Below are positions 1-49,450 of a stretch of DNA of 53,683 bases, in pieces; position 1 is the stretch's first letter; each line of letters opens with the position of its first letter. Made by a program: the position numbers and the translations under genes. Source of the DNA: Frankia alni (GTDB lineage: Bacteria; Actinomycetota; Actinomycetes; Frankiales; Frankiaceae); contig JAMFSN010000187.1 in the NCBI GenBank assembly GCA_026225295.1, positions 1 to 53,683 of the forward strand, written 5' to 3'. Below the pieces are notes generated by a model. The model had not been told where the DNA came from, ran no database searches, and was given only the letters and a program-made list of their open reading frames with translations.

Positions 1-776
1 GTCGACAGCATCAGGATGCCGTCGTTGTTCCAGGTCGCGCCGACCCTGGTCAGGCCGGGGACGGCCACCGGGACCATCGACGCGGCCACGCACAGGGCCG
101 GGGCCAGTCCGAACCGCCGCGCCGCCGCCCAGCACAGCAGGGTCAGCGGGGTGACGATCGCGATGTTGAGCAGGCGCAGTACCCAGACGCTGACGTCGTA
201 ACTCCAGCCCGACGAGCCCGGCACCGCCTTGAGGATCACCGCCCCGACCGCGTAGACCAGCGGCGGGTGCTGGACCATCTGGTTGGACAGACGACCGTCG
301 GTCACGGGTCGGTCGCCCCCCAGCGCGGCGAAGGACTGTCGCTGGTCGCGCGGCGTCGGCGCGATCTCGACGAACGGCGGCTGCCCCCGGTTTTTCCCCC
401 CGGACAGGAAGAAATCGGCGTAGCGGCCCCGGTCGAAGGCGTCGGACGTGCGGGCCACCCCCTGGGCGATGATCCGGTGGCCGGGGCCGGGCCACCCGTC
501 GCCGTGCTCGAGGCCGACGACCATGTCGACGTGCTGGGCCTCGTCGTAGCCGGTCCAGGTCGGGTAGACGAACGAATAGGTCAGCAGCAGACCGAGATGC
601 AGGATGGTGACGGCCCAGACCACCGCCGGAACCCGCCGCCCGGCCCGTACCCGGCCCGCGCCCGGCCGGCCGGGCGCGGGCCGGGCGGTCGCCGGCCCGT
701 CCGGCGGCGCGGCGACCGCGTCCGCGAGCGGGCTGTCGACGTGCTCGAGGATCGCGCGCTCCCAAGGTCCGGACAT
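1..776 (-). CDS. DUF2142-type polytopic membrane glycosyltransferase, N-terminal part
   Basis: This reading frame starts at an ATG at 776 and is still open at the left edge, so only about 258 N-terminal residues are present. After a roughly 50-residue Ala/Pro/Arg-rich cytosolic head there is a first membrane segment, then an extracytoplasmic stretch with YDEAQHVDM, then further hydrophobic segments and a WNNDG motif. An acidic pair straight after the first membrane helix is typical of GT-C transferases that use lipid-linked sugars. The protein is clearly paralogous to the complete one at 27750-29411: both have an acidic pair before a His/Asp segment, a GW-P-PGH segment, QHPPL-Y and a later ND pair. 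It is the last visible member of a minus-strand unit, 28 bp after the ACP-GNAT gene. Substrate unknown. Confidence 0.75.
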   Translation of the reverse strand, partial: MSGPWERAILEHVDSPLADAVAAPPDGPATARPAPGRPGAGRVRAGRRVPAVVWAVTILHLGLLLTYSFVYPTWTGYDEAQHVDMVVGLEHGDGWPGPGHRIIAQGVARTSDAFDRGRYADFFLSGGKNRGQPPFVEIAPTPRDQRQSFAALGGDRPVTDGRLSNQMVQHPPLVYAVGAVILKAVPGSSGWSYDVSVWVLRLLNIAIVTPLTLLCWAAARRFGLAPALCVAASMVPVAVPGLTRVGATWNNDGILMLS

Positions 777-804: not shown

Positions 805-1704
805 CTAGAACGCGCCCGGCACCGGCCCGTCGTCGGCGGGGCCCGCGACGCTCTCCCGGTAGATGGCCAGGATGTGCCGGTCCCAGTACCGGCCGCCCGA
901 GAAGTCGTGCCGGCGCAGGTGACCCTCGGCCGCGAGCGGACCGCCGATCCCGCTGGCCATCAACGGCAGGTTGAACTCCGGAACCTCCAGGTAGAGCTTG
1001 CGAAATGCCCACTGGGCGAAGATGTACCGGACGAACGCGGCGCTGGCCCCGGCGGCCACCCCGGAACCCACCAACGGCGGGCTGAACACCGCGGCGAGGA
1101 AGGCGAACCCGCTCTCGTGGTCGGCGTCGTACACCACGACCTGACCCAGCCGCTCCTGGGAACGGCGTCGCCGGACGACGAACTGGGTCAGAACCCCGGT
1201 CCACAGACTCTCGTTGAACGCCTCCGGGGTCGGCACCCGGCCCCGGTAGCGCCACCGCCAACCCGATCCTTCGCTGGTGGCCAGCCAGTACAGGTAGGCC
1301 AGGTCCTCGGCGACCGGCACGTGGAAGGCGAACTGGGCCGTGCTGAACGCGGCCGGGACGACCGGCGGGGGAGCGACCGGCGCGGCCCGCAGGTCGCCGG
1401 CCGGGCCGCGTCGGCGCCCGCCCGCCAGCCCCGCGACCCCGGCCGCGACCGCGTCGACGGCCCCGGCGGTCACGGTCGACGGGGCGGCGGCATCGAACAG
1501 TTCGCCGGCCGTCCGGGCCGCGCCGGCGGCGTCCGTTTCCGCGTCCAGGCCCGCCTCGGCCAGTCCGACGAGCAGCTCCATCCGGAGCAGCGAGTCGAGC
1601 CCGAGGTCGTCGCCCAGCCGGGCGCCTCGTTCGATCGCGTCCGGATCCCGGCCGGTCAGGCCGGCCACCAGCGCCACGAAGCTCGGCCAGTCGAAGTCCG
1701 TCAC
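805..1704 (-). CDS. Acyl carrier protein fused to a GNAT-like acyltransferase
   Basis: A 299-residue protein with a GTG start. Residues 1-80 look like an acyl carrier protein, with the phosphopantetheine site in LGLDSLL (Ser38). An Ala/Pro-rich linker follows (about 80-120). The rest (about 125-299) resembles a GNAT fold: a YLYWLATSE start, a central VVVYDAD strand, an acidic/aromatic strand around KLYLEVPEFN, and a C-terminal GHLRRHDFSGG-YWD-HILAIYRE segment like the last strands of acetyltransferases. I infer that an acyl group loaded on the carrier domain is passed in cis to an amine or sugar. The gene lies 10 bp after the peptidoglycan-binding-like gene and 28 bp before the GT-C gene, so an envelope-glycan acceptor is plausible. 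No loading enzyme is visible nearby. Confidence 0.72.
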   Translation of the reverse strand: MTDFDWPSFVALVAGLTGRDPDAIERGARLGDDLGLDSLLRMELLVGLAEAGLDAETDAAGAARTAGELFDAAAPSTVTAGAVDAVAAGVAGLAGGRRRGPAGDLRAAPVAPPPVVPAAFSTAQFAFHVPVAEDLAYLYWLATSEGSGWRWRYRGRVPTPEAFNESLWTGVLTQFVVRRRRSQERLGQVVVYDADHESGFAFLAAVFSPPLVGSGVAAGASAAFVRYIFAQWAFRKLYLEVPEFNLPLMASGIGGPLAAEGHLRRHDFSGGRYWDRHILAIYRESVAGPADDGPVPGAF

Positions 1705-3684: not shown

Positions 3685-4293
3685 GTGGACGGCTACGAAC
3701 GGATCATGCAGGAGTGCCTGGGCAGCTACGACATCCCGGTTGAGGCCGACGAGGACAAGCTGGCGGAGCTCATGCTCCTTGTGGCCGAAGAGCTGGCGGA
3801 TGACCGCTTCGGTGGCGCGACCAAGCTCAACAAAGTGCTGTACTTTGCCGAGTTCTCTCACGTCCGGCAGACCGGCCGACCGATCACCGGAACGCCCTAC
3901 CGGAAGCTTCCGAACGGACCGGCGCCCCGGCGTCTCAAGCCGGTGCGGGAACGGCTTATCGCCTGGGGCGACGCGGCCCTCATCGCCGAGTCGGTTCTCG
4001 GATATCGCCAGGATCGGCTGAGGCCCCTGCGTGTGGCGGACCGCTCAATCTTCACAGAGTCTGAGCGGCAGGTCATCGCCGACGCCGTGGCACTACTGCA
4101 TGGTCGGACCGCAGCCGAGGTGAGTGATCTGTCGCACCAGGAGCCAGGCTGGAAGATGGTCGGTGACGGTGAGGACATTCCATACGCGACCGCCTACCTG
4201 CCGGCTCTCCAGCCCGAACCATCACCTGCGACGCGAGCCCGAATGCGGGAGATCGGCGAGCAGTACACCCGCGAGGGCCGCCTGGTCTCGTGA
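3685..4293 (+). CDS. Panacea-domain (DUF4065/SocA-like) protein, probable antitoxin
   Basis: 202 residues. The central part (about 45-90) has the Panacea/DUF4065 signature: a helix with TKLNKVLYFAEF, then G-PITG-PYRKLPNGPAP, where a substrate-like loop carries the conserved Y/K and NGP. Panacea proteins are known as hyper-promiscuous antitoxins and as the SocA antitoxin. Base composition is noticeably less GC-rich than the envelope genes around it, consistent with later acquisition. A short frame begins at a GTG overlapping its stop codon (GTGA at 4290-4293), the usual layout of a two-gene toxin-antitoxin unit, but that second frame looks broken. Neutralised partner unknown. Confidence 0.78.
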   Translation: MDGYERIMQECLGSYDIPVEADEDKLAELMLLVAEELADDRFGGATKLNKVLYFAEFSHVRQTGRPITGTPYRKLPNGPAPRRLKPVRERLIAWGDAALIAESVLGYRQDRLRPLRVADRSIFTESERQVIADAVALLHGRTAAEVSDLSHQEPGWKMVGDGEDIPYATAYLPALQPEPSPATRARMREIGEQYTREGRLVS

Positions 4294-44879: not shown

Positions 44880-47800
44880 ATGGCGGATCTGGTCGCGGTC
44901 GGGGCCGACCCGGGCCGGGACCGCCGGGACCCGGAACCGACCCCGGTCGCCGGGTCCGTGACGGCCGTCCTGGTCGTCTGCGACGGGATGGAATGGCTGC
45001 CCGCCGCGCTGGCCGCGCTTTCTTCCCAGGAGCGGGCCCCGGACCGGATCGTCGCCGTCGACGTCGGCAGCGTCGACGGGAGCGGTCTGCTGTGCGTCCG
45101 GGCCCTGGGGGCCGCCCGGCTGGTGGGGCTGGCCCGGGGCACCTCGTTCGCCGCGGCGGTCGCCAGCGGGCTCGCCGCCGTCGGCGGACCCCCTCCGGAC
45201 GGGTTCGTCTGGCTGCTGCACGACGATGCGGCGCCCCGGCCGGACGCCCTCCGGCACCTCTTGCTGTACGCCGCCACCGACCCCAGCGCGGCGGTGCTCG
45301 GCCCGAAGATCCACGACTGGTCGGCCCCGGGAATCGTGCGGGAGGTCGGGGTCGCCCTCGACCGCACCGCCCGCCGGGTGACCGGTCTCGCGCCCGACGA
45401 GCACGACCACGGACAGCACGACGGTCCGCGGGACGTCCCGGCCGTCTCCACCGCCGGCCTGCTCGTGCGATCGGGTGCCTGGACCCGGCTCGGTGGCCTG
45501 TCGGTCGACCTGGCCGCCGCCGAGGACGTGGATTTCGGCTGGCGGGCCGGGCGGTCCGGGCTGCGGGTGGTGGTCGTGCCGATGGCGGTCGTGACCCACC
45601 GGCGGGCCGGGGCCACCGGCCGCCGCGGGATCCGGACCCCGCGAGTCGCCCGGCGGACCCACCGGCAGGCCGCGTTGTTCGTGCGGCTGGCCAACGCGCC
45701 GGCCGGTTGGCTGCCGCTGATCGCCGTCCACCTGGCGCTGGTCGGCCTGGGTCGGACCGCCGTCCGGCTGGCCCGGCTCCGGCCGGCCGACGCGGCCGAC
45801 GAACTCCTCGCCACCGCCGCGGTGTTCGCGAGCGTCCGGTTGCTCGCGCGGGGTCGGCGGACCCGGCGCGCCGGGTCCCGGGCCGGGCGCCCCGTCCCGC
45901 ACCGGGTGGTCCGGCGGACCCACGCGCTGATCCCGGCCCAGCGGGCCCCGCTCGGTCGGGACCCGGCCGCCCGGGACCCGGCCGCCCGGGACCTGCCGAG
46001 TCGGGAGGCGGCTGGTCGGGAGGCGGCCGGCGGGCCCGCGGTCGAAGTGCGCCCGGTCGAGGTCCGGCGGCCCGACCGGACGTGGATGGCGCTGGGCGGC
46101 GTTCTGGCCGTGGTCGGTCTGGCCACCGCGCGGGCCGGCGGCGGGTTCGGCTCGACCGGGGTCGCCGCGCGACTGCTGCCCGCGCCGGGCGGCGCGACCG
46201 CTGTGTGGTCGGCCCTCGCGTCCGGCTGGTCAGGGGGCGCCAGCGCGGGCCTCGGTGGCCCGGGCCCGGCGCCCGGCTGGACCCCCGCGCTGGCCGTCCT
46301 GTCGACGCTGTGCGGGGGGAAGCCGTGGCTGGCCCTCGACCTGGTGCTGGCCGGCGGTCCGGTCCTGGCCGGGCTGGCGGCGTGGTGGGCGGCCGGCTCG
46401 ATCCGGCCGGCGGTCCGCCGGCCGGTCCGGCTCGCCGGGGCCGGGGCGTACGGGCTGGTCCCGGTGGTCACCGGAACCGTCGCCGCGGGACGGTTCGATG
46501 TCGTCCTCGCGATGGTGGTGCTGCCGCTGACCCTCGCGGCCGCCGTCCGCGCGAGCGGCGCGGTTCCGCGCCGGGTTCGGGCGGCGGCGGTGGCCCGGGT
46601 CGCGCTCGGGGCGGCCGCGGTGGCGGCCTGTTCGCCGCCGCTCGCGATCCCCTTGGCCCTCGTCCTGCTCGGCGGGGCCGCCCTGACCCGCCGGCCGGCC
46701 CGGTTGGTTCACCGACTGGCGTGGGTGTTCGCGGTGTTCGGGGCCGCCGCGGCGATGCTGTGGACCTTTGCGGCCGACGCCGGTCGCCAGCCCGGCCTGC
46801 TCGTGCGGGGGTACGGCACCCTGGCCGCCGCACCGGTCACCGGCCCGCTGGTGGCGGCCGGGTCCCGGCCGGTGGCGCTGGCCGCCGCGGCCGGGGCCGG
46901 CGTCGTGGGGCTGGCGGCGCTCGTCGGCCTGACCCGGCCCCGGGTGGCGCCCGCCGCGTGGGCCGGCTGGGCGGTGGCGCTCATCGCCGCCGGAGCGGCC
47001 GCCGGCTCGGCCCGGGGCATCGCCGGCGTGCGGGGCAGCATCGCGCCGGACCTCGCGCTGGCCGCCCTCGGGCTGCTCGGGGCGGCCATGGTCGCCACCC
47101 GGGGGGCCCGGCTCGATCTCGGTAACCACGCGTTTTCGTGGCGCCAGCCGGCCGCGGCGGCCCTCGCGGCCGTGACCCTCGGCGCCCCGGTGGTGCTCGC
47201 GGTCGTCGCCGTGGTCGCGCCCGGGTCGCCCGCGTCCGCCTCGTCCGGGGCCGGTTCGGCGCCGTGGGGGGCGCTGGCCGGTCCGGACGGAGGTCGGGTG
47301 CTCGTCCTGACCGGGTCCGCGCCGGTCCGGTACAGCCTGGTCGGGTCGCTCGGTCCCCGGCTGGGCGATCTGGACGCCCGGGTGCCGGCCGCCGCCCGGG
47401 CCTTCACCTCCGCCACCGTGACGGCGCTGGTCACCGGGGCCGGGGACCCGGCCGCGACCGCCCGCCTGGTGCCGCTCGGGGTGGGCGCGGTGGCCGTCCC
47501 GGCGTCCGGCGCCGGCGGGGCGGTCGTCGCCGCGCTCGACGCGACCCCCGGACTGGTCCGGGCCCAGGTCGGAACCGGGTTCCTGGTCTGGCGGCCGGCC
47601 GCGGGCGGCCCCGGAGCCGACGGCGGGGCCGGCGGTGGGGCCCGGCTGTCGGTCGTCGACGGCGCCACCGCGCGGCCGGTCGGGGCGGACGGGCAGGTCC
47701 CGGCCGGGGGCAACGGCCGGGCGCTGGTCCTGGCCGAGCCGGTCGACCGGGCGTGGCGGGCGACGCTCGACGGGCGTCGGCTGCCGGCCCGCCCGGGATC

Positions 47801-47966
47801 CGGATTCGGGCCGGCCTTCGCGTTGCCGGCCGCCGGCGGCCGGGTGCTGGTCCGGTACGACGACGGCCCGCGGCGGATCGTCCTGGGCGCCCAGGCGGTA
47901 GCGGTCCTGCTGGCCGTGGGCGTCGCGTCGAACGGTGCTCAGCGGATCCGCCGGCGGACGGGATGA
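44880..47966 (+). CDS. Giant GT2 glycosyltransferase with polytopic membrane domain
   Basis: 1028 residues from ATG 44880; a longer frame overlaps whiB2 and was rejected. Residues 20-230 form a GT-A-like domain: TAVLVVCDGMEWLPAALAAL, IVAVDVGSVDGSG, LHDDAAPRPDAL (DD motif), and AAEDVDFGWRAGRSG. A first helix near 275 and a repeated basic linker follow (RDPAARDPAARDLPSRE, then REAAGREAAGGPAVE at about 359-390). From about 400 on, there are some 10-12 helices and a beta-rich C-terminal extracytoplasmic domain. Genes of this type sit between whiB2 and DUF5719 in many actinobacteria; their function is not settled. ATGA overlap with DUF5719. Confidence 0.82.
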   Translation: MADLVAVGADPGRDRRDPEPTPVAGSVTAVLVVCDGMEWLPAALAALSSQERAPDRIVAVDVGSVDGSGLLCVRALGAARLVGLARGTSFAAAVASGLAAVGGPPPDGFVWLLHDDAAPRPDALRHLLLYAATDPSAAVLGPKIHDWSAPGIVREVGVALDRTARRVTGLAPDEHDHGQHDGPRDVPAVSTAGLLVRSGAWTRLGGLSVDLAAAEDVDFGWRAGRSGLRVVVVPMAVVTHRRAGATGRRGIRTPRVARRTHRQAALFVRLANAPAGWLPLIAVHLALVGLGRTAVRLARLRPADAADELLATAAVFASVRLLARGRRTRRAGSRAGRPVPHRVVRRTHALIPAQRAPLGRDPAARDPAARDLPSREAAGREAAGGPAVEVRPVEVRRPDRTWMALGGVLAVVGLATARAGGGFGSTGVAARLLPAPGGATAVWSALASGWSGGASAGLGGPGPAPGWTPALAVLSTLCGGKPWLALDLVLAGGPVLAGLAAWWAAGSIRPAVRRPVRLAGAGAYGLVPVVTGTVAAGRFDVVLAMVVLPLTLAAAVRASGAVPRRVRAAAVARVALGAAAVAACSPPLAIPLALVLLGGAALTRRPARLVHRLAWVFAVFGAAAAMLWTFAADAGRQPGLLVRGYGTLAAAPVTGPLVAAGSRPVALAAAAGAGVVGLAALVGLTRPRVAPAAWAGWAVALIAAGAAAGSARGIAGVRGSIAPDLALAALGLLGAAMVATRGARLDLGNHAFSWRQPAAAALAAVTLGAPVVLAVVAVVAPGSPASASSGAGSAPWGALAGPDGGRVLVLTGSAPVRYSLVGSLGPRLGDLDARVPAAARAFTSATVTALVTGAGDPAATARLVPLGVGAVAVPASGAGGAVVAALDATPGLVRAQVGTGFLVWRPAAGGPGADGGAGGGARLSVVDGATARPVGADGQVPAGGNGRALVLAEPVDRAWRATLDGRRLPARPGSGFGPAFALPAAGGRVLVRYDDGPRRIVLGAQAVAVLLAVGVASNGAQRIRRRTG

Positions 47967-49450
47967 GGCGGGCCCTACGACTGGGGTCGGCCGTGATCGG
48001 CGTGGTCGCGCTGGGCGGCGCGGGTGCCCTCGCCGCGACCCGCGCTCCGGCGCCGGTCGGCGGCGCCGGCCCGGCCCCGGCGGTGCCGGTCGCGATGACG
48101 TCGGTGGTCTGCCCGAACCTGCTGGCCGGCTACACCGGGTCCAGGGCCGGGTCCGGGCGCGCGGTCCGGGTCGCCCTCGCCACGGCCGGCCCGGCCCCGG
48201 CCGGGTCCGTGACCCGGGCCCCGGTCGGCCGGACCGGGGTGGACACCGTCACCGCCAGCGGTCCGGGAGCGGGCGGAATCACGACGACGGTCACCGCGAC
48301 CGGCACCGGGACCGCGCGGGCCGCCAGCCGGGCGCTGTGCGTCGCACCCGCGGCCACCACCTGGTTCGCCGGCCCGGGGACCGGCGCCGGCGCGGACCCG
48401 TTGCTCACGCTCACCAACCCCGGGCCGGGGCCGGCCCGGGCCGACATCGCGGTGGTCACCGGCGCGGGCGCGGCCGGCGACAACGAGACGGGCGCGGCCG
48501 GCGACAGCGCGACCGGCGCCGACCTGGGCGGCGACAGCGCGACCGGCGATCCGATGGGGATGGTCGATCCGGGGGTCGGGGTCCCGGCCGGATCCACCGT
48601 CACGGTGCGGCTCGCCGCGCTCGCCCCCGAGGCGACGGCCACCGCGGTGCGGGTGACCGTGCGCGAGGGGCGTCTGGCGACCAGCCTCCTGGACCGGGAC
48701 TCGGTGCCGGGCCCGGGGCGCAACGTGGCGGCCGTGCCACCCAGCGCGGCCCCGTCCCGCACCGTGCTGATCCCCGGCGAAGCGGCCGGACCGGGTCGTC
48801 GGGTGCTGGTCATCGCGGCGCCGACCGGGGACGCGATGGTCCGCGTCGAGCAGGTGGGCGCCGGCTCCCGGTACAGCCCGGTCGGGCTGGCCGCGGTCGC
48901 GGTGGCGGCGGGCACCGTGACCCGGCTCGATCTCGGCCGGGCCCCGGCCGCCGACGGCTCGGTGCTCGCCACGGTCACGGCCGGCGCCCCGGTGCTGGCC
49001 GCGCTTGGTCTGACCAGCTCGAATACGACCAGCGCGAACGGGACGGCGCCGGCCCGGACCTGGCTCGCGCCGGTCCCCCCGCCGGCCGGGGCCCAGCCGT
49101 CCTCGACGACGGTCGTGGCGGTCCCGGGACTGCCGGCCGGCAACGCGGGCGAGGTGGTGATCGCGACCGGGTCCGGTGGGGGCCGGGCCCGGCTCGACAC
49201 CGGGGCGGCGGTGGCGCTCCCGGCCGGGCGCACGGTGACGATCGGGCTGCCTCCGCGCTACCGCGGCGGAACACTCACGATCACCGGCGCCGGGACCGGC
49301 GGCGCCGCTGGCGGCGCGGTGGCGCAGATCCTGCGGCGGGCCGGAGCGACGGGCGCCGGGCCGGGTGCGGCCCTCGTCCTACCCCCGGCCGTCGACGCCG
49401 TCCGTGGGGTGACGGTGCTCGACGACCCCCGCGCGGCCGCCCAGCGCTAA
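47963..49450 (+). CDS. DUF5719-family secreted or anchored protein
   Basis: 495 residues from ATG 47963, overlapping the preceding stop (ATGA). A basic start and Ala/Gly-rich hydrophobic stretch (RLGSAVIGVVALGGAGALA) look like a signal peptide or anchor. The remainder is Ala/Gly/Thr/Val-rich beta structure with VGRTGVDTVTASGPG and SRALCVAPAATTWFAGPGT, as in DUF5719 proteins that always follow the giant GT2. Residues about 175-200 hold short repeats GAAGDNETGAAGDSATGAD and GGDSATGDP. It lacks recognisable catalytic residues and is probably a partner of the membrane GT2 at the cell surface. Confidence 0.75.
   Translation: MRRALRLGSAVIGVVALGGAGALAATRAPAPVGGAGPAPAVPVAMTSVVCPNLLAGYTGSRAGSGRAVRVALATAGPAPAGSVTRAPVGRTGVDTVTASGPGAGGITTTVTATGTGTARAASRALCVAPAATTWFAGPGTGAGADPLLTLTNPGPGPARADIAVVTGAGAAGDNETGAAGDSATGADLGGDSATGDPMGMVDPGVGVPAGSTVTVRLAALAPEATATAVRVTVREGRLATSLLDRDSVPGPGRNVAAVPPSAAPSRTVLIPGEAAGPGRRVLVIAAPTGDAMVRVEQVGAGSRYSPVGLAAVAVAAGTVTRLDLGRAPAADGSVLATVTAGAPVLAALGLTSSNTTSANGTAPARTWLAPVPPPAGAQPSSTTVVAVPGLPAGNAGEVVIATGSGGGRARLDTGAAVALPAGRTVTIGLPPRYRGGTLTITGAGTGGAAGGAVAQILRRAGATGAGPGAALVLPPAVDAVRGVTVLDDPRAAAQR

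Follow-up and report, generated by a model that had tools for sequence, protein, structure and literature searches.

What would an acyl carrier protein (ACP) fused to a GNAT-type transferase acylate, and from where would it draw its acyl group? The question is raised by one gene in the window, the 53,683-nucleotide stretch of Frankia DNA analysed here, which a preliminary description had placed between genes for a secreted peptidoglycan-binding-like protein and a DUF2142-type membrane protein. We favour, with a probability of roughly 0.45, an acyltransferase with a built-in donor, in which a FAAL-type ligase would load the fused carrier and the GNAT domain would acylate an amine, most likely on a co-encoded exported protein.

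A carrier domain and a GNAT domain in one chain

The gene occupies positions 805–1704 on the minus strand and encodes, from a GTG start, 299 residues without an internal stop. Residues 1–80 (1465–1704, minus strand) form the acyl carrier domain; the Pfam family PP-binding (PF00550) matches residues 10–69 with 23.2 bits against a cut-off of 20.8. A variable linker (residues 81–121; 1342–1464, minus strand), mostly of low pLDDT, leads to the GNAT domain (residues 122–289; 838–1341, minus strand), within which Acetyltransf_3 (PF13302) scores 24.8 bits over residues 132–246, just below its cut-off of 25.4. An AlphaFold2 model built from a 24-sequence alignment (mean pLDDT 80) shows the carrier and GNAT domains with confidence and leaves the linker that joins them disordered. 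Carrier-type helices are predicted at residues 6–17, 38–50, 58–61 and 66–72, with helix II starting at Ser38 of the motif LGLDSLL (codon 1591–1593, minus strand). For the GNAT part, VIA-align aligned SpeG and other GNATs over approximately residues 122–289 with Z scores of ~15–17, and Foldseek gave E values of ~1e-9; among solved structures, the SpeG acetyltransferases come closest in fold (VIA Z ~17), but they use acetyl-CoA and polyamines and have no carrier domain. The window protein is thus an acyl carrier protein by its fold and Asp-Ser site, and a GNAT by its fold. The pairing of the two domains on one chain, as first described, is borne out by the agreement of Pfam, the model and the fold matches, and a carrier fold is indeed predicted for residues 1–80, with PF00550 above its cut-off.

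Ser38 is the predicted site of phosphopantetheine attachment. The preliminary description had pointed out that a phosphopantetheinyl transferase would be needed, and three genes resembling such enzymes (PF01648) are present in the window's genome. On the GNAT side, the loop that binds the CoA pyrophosphate in GNATs (Q/R-x-x-G-x-G/A) retains only Gly215 as an invariant residue in this family, the remaining positions being variable.

The fusion is not a chance event, since 23 further full-length fusions, mainly from Frankiaceae plus Micromonosporaceae, align with the window protein, and Asp37 and Ser38 are invariant across all 24. Also invariant are Arg150, Gln174, Gly215, Lys236, Tyr238, Glu240, Asn245, Glu260, His266, Arg272 and Asp275. 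The HlyC family has a His/Asp catalytic dyad, of which His266 and Asp275 may or may not be the equivalents. No HlyC-type family was among the Pfam matches to the window protein at E ≤ 1, and HlyC-type structures were absent among the fold matches listed, which is no evidence against kinship. Sequence thus gives no support for placing the protein in the HlyC family, though it may act in a HlyC-like way.

Single-sequence scans of genome contigs and viral contigs returned no relatives; an alignment-based scan returned 44, in the genera Frankia, Parafrankia, Pseudofrankia, Micromonospora, Allorhizocola, Rhizocola, Catellatospora and Virgisporangium and in Acidimicrobiia and Thermoleophilaceae assemblies. 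Relatives are common in Frankiaceae, the family of the window's genome, and scattered across the rest of the sampled phylum. A class-wide search in the class of genome G306 added more relatives, most of its weak matches spanning the carrier part alone and probably being ordinary carrier proteins.

More distant actinobacterial relatives have the reversed order GNAT-ACP (L133, L134, L079 and L190), have the GNAT and the ACP as split, adjoining genes (L144, L202 and L192), or have a GNAT with no carrier nearby. The link between carrier and GNAT is thus kept by fusion in both orders and also by adjacency, which points to joint action of carrier and GNAT. No same-frame carrier was found in the Thermoleophilaceae GNAT (L141) and several other relatives; the former, in a metagenome-assembled genome, is surrounded by three similar exported proteins (L141, 7209–13012).

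FAAL-type ligases beside the fusion

The preliminary description had also called for an acyl-loading enzyme, and a ligase of the FAAL type was found beside many relatives. Of 51 distinct loci (those whose GNAT domains share less than 75% identity), 15 have an AMP-ligase within 4 kb, with both domain orders represented; at most of the 15 it is on the same strand and either overlaps or is separated by 8–193 bp. Over almost its whole length the neighbouring ligase can be aligned with FAALs whose structures are solved, and in the PDB these ligases match FAALs or FAAL-like loading domains best, with CoA ligases well behind. All 16 ligases tested from beside ACP-GNATs (Frankiaceae and Micromonosporaceae) fall on one side of a single branch (support 77/96), and the ligases that accompany reversed fusions branch separately in the ligase tree. 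FAALs do not accept CoA but charge holo-ACP (PMC8460268). Because adjacency, kinship with FAALs, their use of holo-ACP and the grouping of the ligases coincide, loading by a FAAL is well supported for the family and is the best supported part of our reading.

For the window's own fused carrier, loading by a FAAL is an extrapolation from these relatives. Neither a FAAL nor a SnoaL gene lies within 4 kb of the ACP-GNAT on its contig, the downstream side of which ends at the contig end. Elsewhere in the genome there are two FAAL-like genes, one cut by a contig end (C309) and one on C185, both outside the ligase group associated with ACP-GNATs.

Other genes recur at the loci of relatives. A SnoaL_2-like protein (a weak match) is present at 11 loci, and in some Frankiaceae (L063, L083, L086 and L067) a P450-like gene directly follows the FAAL and SnoaL-like genes; the P450 may tailor the acyl group. 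At two loci a stand-alone carrier-like protein of 90–91 amino acids precedes the FAAL (L052, 3352–3624; L058, 6790–7065), whereas the ACP-GNAT, itself next to exported proteins, is encoded on the other strand; two carriers may therefore serve one FAAL there.

Exported neighbours as candidate acceptors

Immediately upstream of the ACP-GNAT, at 1715–2368 on the minus strand, lies a gene for an exported peptidoglycan-binding protein (PF01471, PG_binding_1, 49.3 bits) of 217 amino acids, read from the ATG at 2368. It has a signal-peptide-like N-terminus, and its stop codon (1715–1717) is 10 bp from the ACP-GNAT; this gap and the 28 bp on the other side, to the DUF2142-like gene, are as first reported. 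We consider it the candidate acceptor. Its translation contains a single lysine, Lys206 (codon 1751–1753, minus strand), which is where the acyl group would be expected if lysine is the residue modified. A PG_binding_1 partner, together with a FAAL, is also found beside the Virgisporangium ACP-GNAT.

Across the relatives an exported neighbour recurs whilst its family varies between clades, which hold peptidoglycan-binding, amidase-like, matrixin-like or small unknown proteins. At five Micromonosporaceae loci the neighbour of the GNAT belongs to an amidase-like family that contains Cys and has no Pfam match; one locus has an exported Amidase_6 protein (L087); matrixin-like metalloproteases are neighbours in Frankiaceae (L054, L055 and L063), with a similar fragment, a weak case, at L197; Tat-signal proteins occur at L195 and L199; and several small Cys-containing exported proteins adjoin ACP-GNATs in Frankia. 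Both the matrixin-like protease and, at L055, L063 and L197, a protein anchored as a lipoprotein or in the membrane were seen repeatedly beside the GNAT in distant actinobacteria.

Exported neighbours are enriched at these loci. Walking along same-strand runs with a home-made signal-peptide predictor in its strict version, we recorded an exported neighbour for 15 of 37 members compared with 17 of 161 background genes at the same loci (Fisher p = 5e-5, with loci treated as independent although related genomes are not). An earlier, looser predictor gave 16/26 against 35/140 (p = 4e-4, on the same assumption), and was tightened after it scored AMP-ligases as secreted. By the strict test many loci have no exported neighbour. 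Alignments of the partner families revealed conserved lysines within the Frankia family and within the Micromonosporaceae family, and no motif common to different families was seen in them.

The likeliest acceptor is the exported protein whose gene adjoins the ACP-GNAT. This is argued by analogy: GNAT-fold enzymes that depend on ACP, of the HlyC type and CdiC, acylate lysines of exported proteins (PMC8339906, PMC8510554). In the pathway that we propose, Ser38 of the fused carrier would be phosphopantetheinylated; a FAAL-type ligase would adenylate a fatty (or similar) acid and load it onto the carrier; and the GNAT domain would take the acyl group from the carrier on its own chain and pass it to an amine, most likely of the co-encoded exported protein, in the cytoplasm and before export, as HlyC-type enzymes do. 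More tentatively, the family as a whole could be a dedicated actinobacterial protein-acylation system, independent of a lipobox, in which a FAAL and a carrier-fused GNAT acylate whichever exported protein adjoins them.

The main rival to protein acylation is a small-molecule product, which we judge less likely. The FAAL would again load the carrier, and the GNAT would make a diffusible N-acyl amine in the manner of FeeM or LuxI, to be tailored by the SnoaL-like protein and the P450; the exported neighbours would be unrelated. In its favour, the FAAL, SnoaL-like and P450 genes form a compact operon in several Frankiaceae, and ACP-using N-acyl amino acid synthases have been described (PMC8762209). 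Against such a product stand the exported neighbours, which are enriched over the background of the same loci and change family while the adjacency stays, and the Micromonosporaceae loci, which have ligase, ACP-GNAT and exported protein with no SnoaL match or P450 seen alongside.

A glycan acceptor, as the preliminary description proposed, appears improbable. On that view the polysaccharide locus around the gene would make a wall or lipid-linked glycan, which the acyl group would decorate, and the DUF2142 protein would be a partner. Glycosyltransferase-like genes are indeed numerous in the window, which also has an ABC-exporter-like permease and a second DUF2142 gene; some GNATs are known to acylate nucleotide sugars (PseH and FdhC are among the VIA-align matches); and membrane glycosyltransferase-like proteins lie near a few relatives (for example L139, 1856–3136; L131, 10110–11618). 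Against this, most relatives lie outside polysaccharide loci, where their neighbours include a prolyl-tRNA-synthetase-like gene or a phosphate-transport-like cluster, and no DUF2142 gene was seen beside any relative at the loci examined. The DUF2142-like gene itself (3–776, minus strand; 26.0 bits against a cut-off of 30.1) starts at 776, 28 bp downstream of the ACP-GNAT, and is cut by the contig end, the window being all of contig C254; no piece matching its remainder was found at any other contig end in the genome. Its product is probably outside the acylation unit, and the polysaccharide genes look like local context. Of the original proposal, then, a cis-acting acyl donor is likely, because carrier and GNAT share one chain, whereas the glycan acceptor gives way to the recurring exported proteins.

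GNAT-ACP pairing also occurs in polyketide loading modules, where a GNAT-like domain loads the carrier. We give little credence to this role for the fusion, with another enzyme using the acyl-ACP, since, although YiiD is tied to malonyl-ACP decarboxylation in one report (PMC8666670), a loading enzyme, the FAAL, already lies beside the fusion at many loci and no ketosynthase was seen recurring at those of the relatives.

Relation to known systems

Protein acylation by a carrier-fused GNAT can be set beside several known systems. FeeM/FeeL N-acyl amino acid synthases likewise combine a GNAT-like enzyme with its own carrier protein, but they make small molecules and lack an exported protein partner; we know of no fused carrier among them. 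To our knowledge, neither a FAAL nor a fused carrier occurs with the GNATs of goadvionin (GdvG), nostolysamide and selidamide biosynthesis. These resemble the proposed system in acylating a ribosomal product encoded alongside, and differ in that their acceptors are short modified peptides and their donors PKS-bound or CoA-bound (PMC13060382). In lipopeptide and polyketide clusters, FAAL-ACP loading pairs similarly place a FAAL beside a carrier protein (PMC11837247), but there an NRPS or PKS receives the acyl group.

A close parallel is with HlyC, CyaC, ApxC and CdiC, which combine a GNAT fold, an acyl-ACP donor and a co-encoded exported acceptor that is acylated before export (PMC8339906, PMC8510554). 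The fusion family differs from them in having no sequence-family match, in its fused carrier, in the dedicated FAAL nearby in relatives, in being actinobacterial, and in exported partners that have signal peptides and change family. ACP-dependent acylation by GNAT-fold enzymes is therefore already known; what appears new here is a carrier-fused GNAT together with a FAAL and changing exported partners, among which we infer the acceptors to be. In the literature searched, no description of this combination of carrier-fused GNAT, FAAL and exported protein came up. GNAT-ACP-ligase neighbourhoods have been described in a different, tRNA-synthetase-based system (PMC2922099), and a text search of a 2025 FAAL review (PMC11837247) returned no mention of GNAT.

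What the arrangement suggests is a hitherto undescribed route of acyl attachment, with exported proteins as its most likely targets and acylation preceding their export. Apart from the lipoprotein pathway, few systems are known in which exported proteins are acylated, chiefly those of RTX proteins and CdiA. If our reading is correct, nitrogen-fixing Frankia and its relatives would hold a second, carrier-fused solution, a modular unit travelling with changing exported partners; many uncharacterised small secreted proteins would become testable as acylated proteins, and the unit would offer a tool for protein lipidation.

Two further features of the window were observed. A SocA/Panacea-domain protein, a possible antitoxin, is encoded at 3685–4293 on the plus strand (PF13274, 56 bits). 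The stretch 46001–48000, with a GC content of 0.816 and an AT skew of -0.43, is well off the rest of the window and lies largely inside a long glycosyltransferase-like open reading frame (44880–47966).
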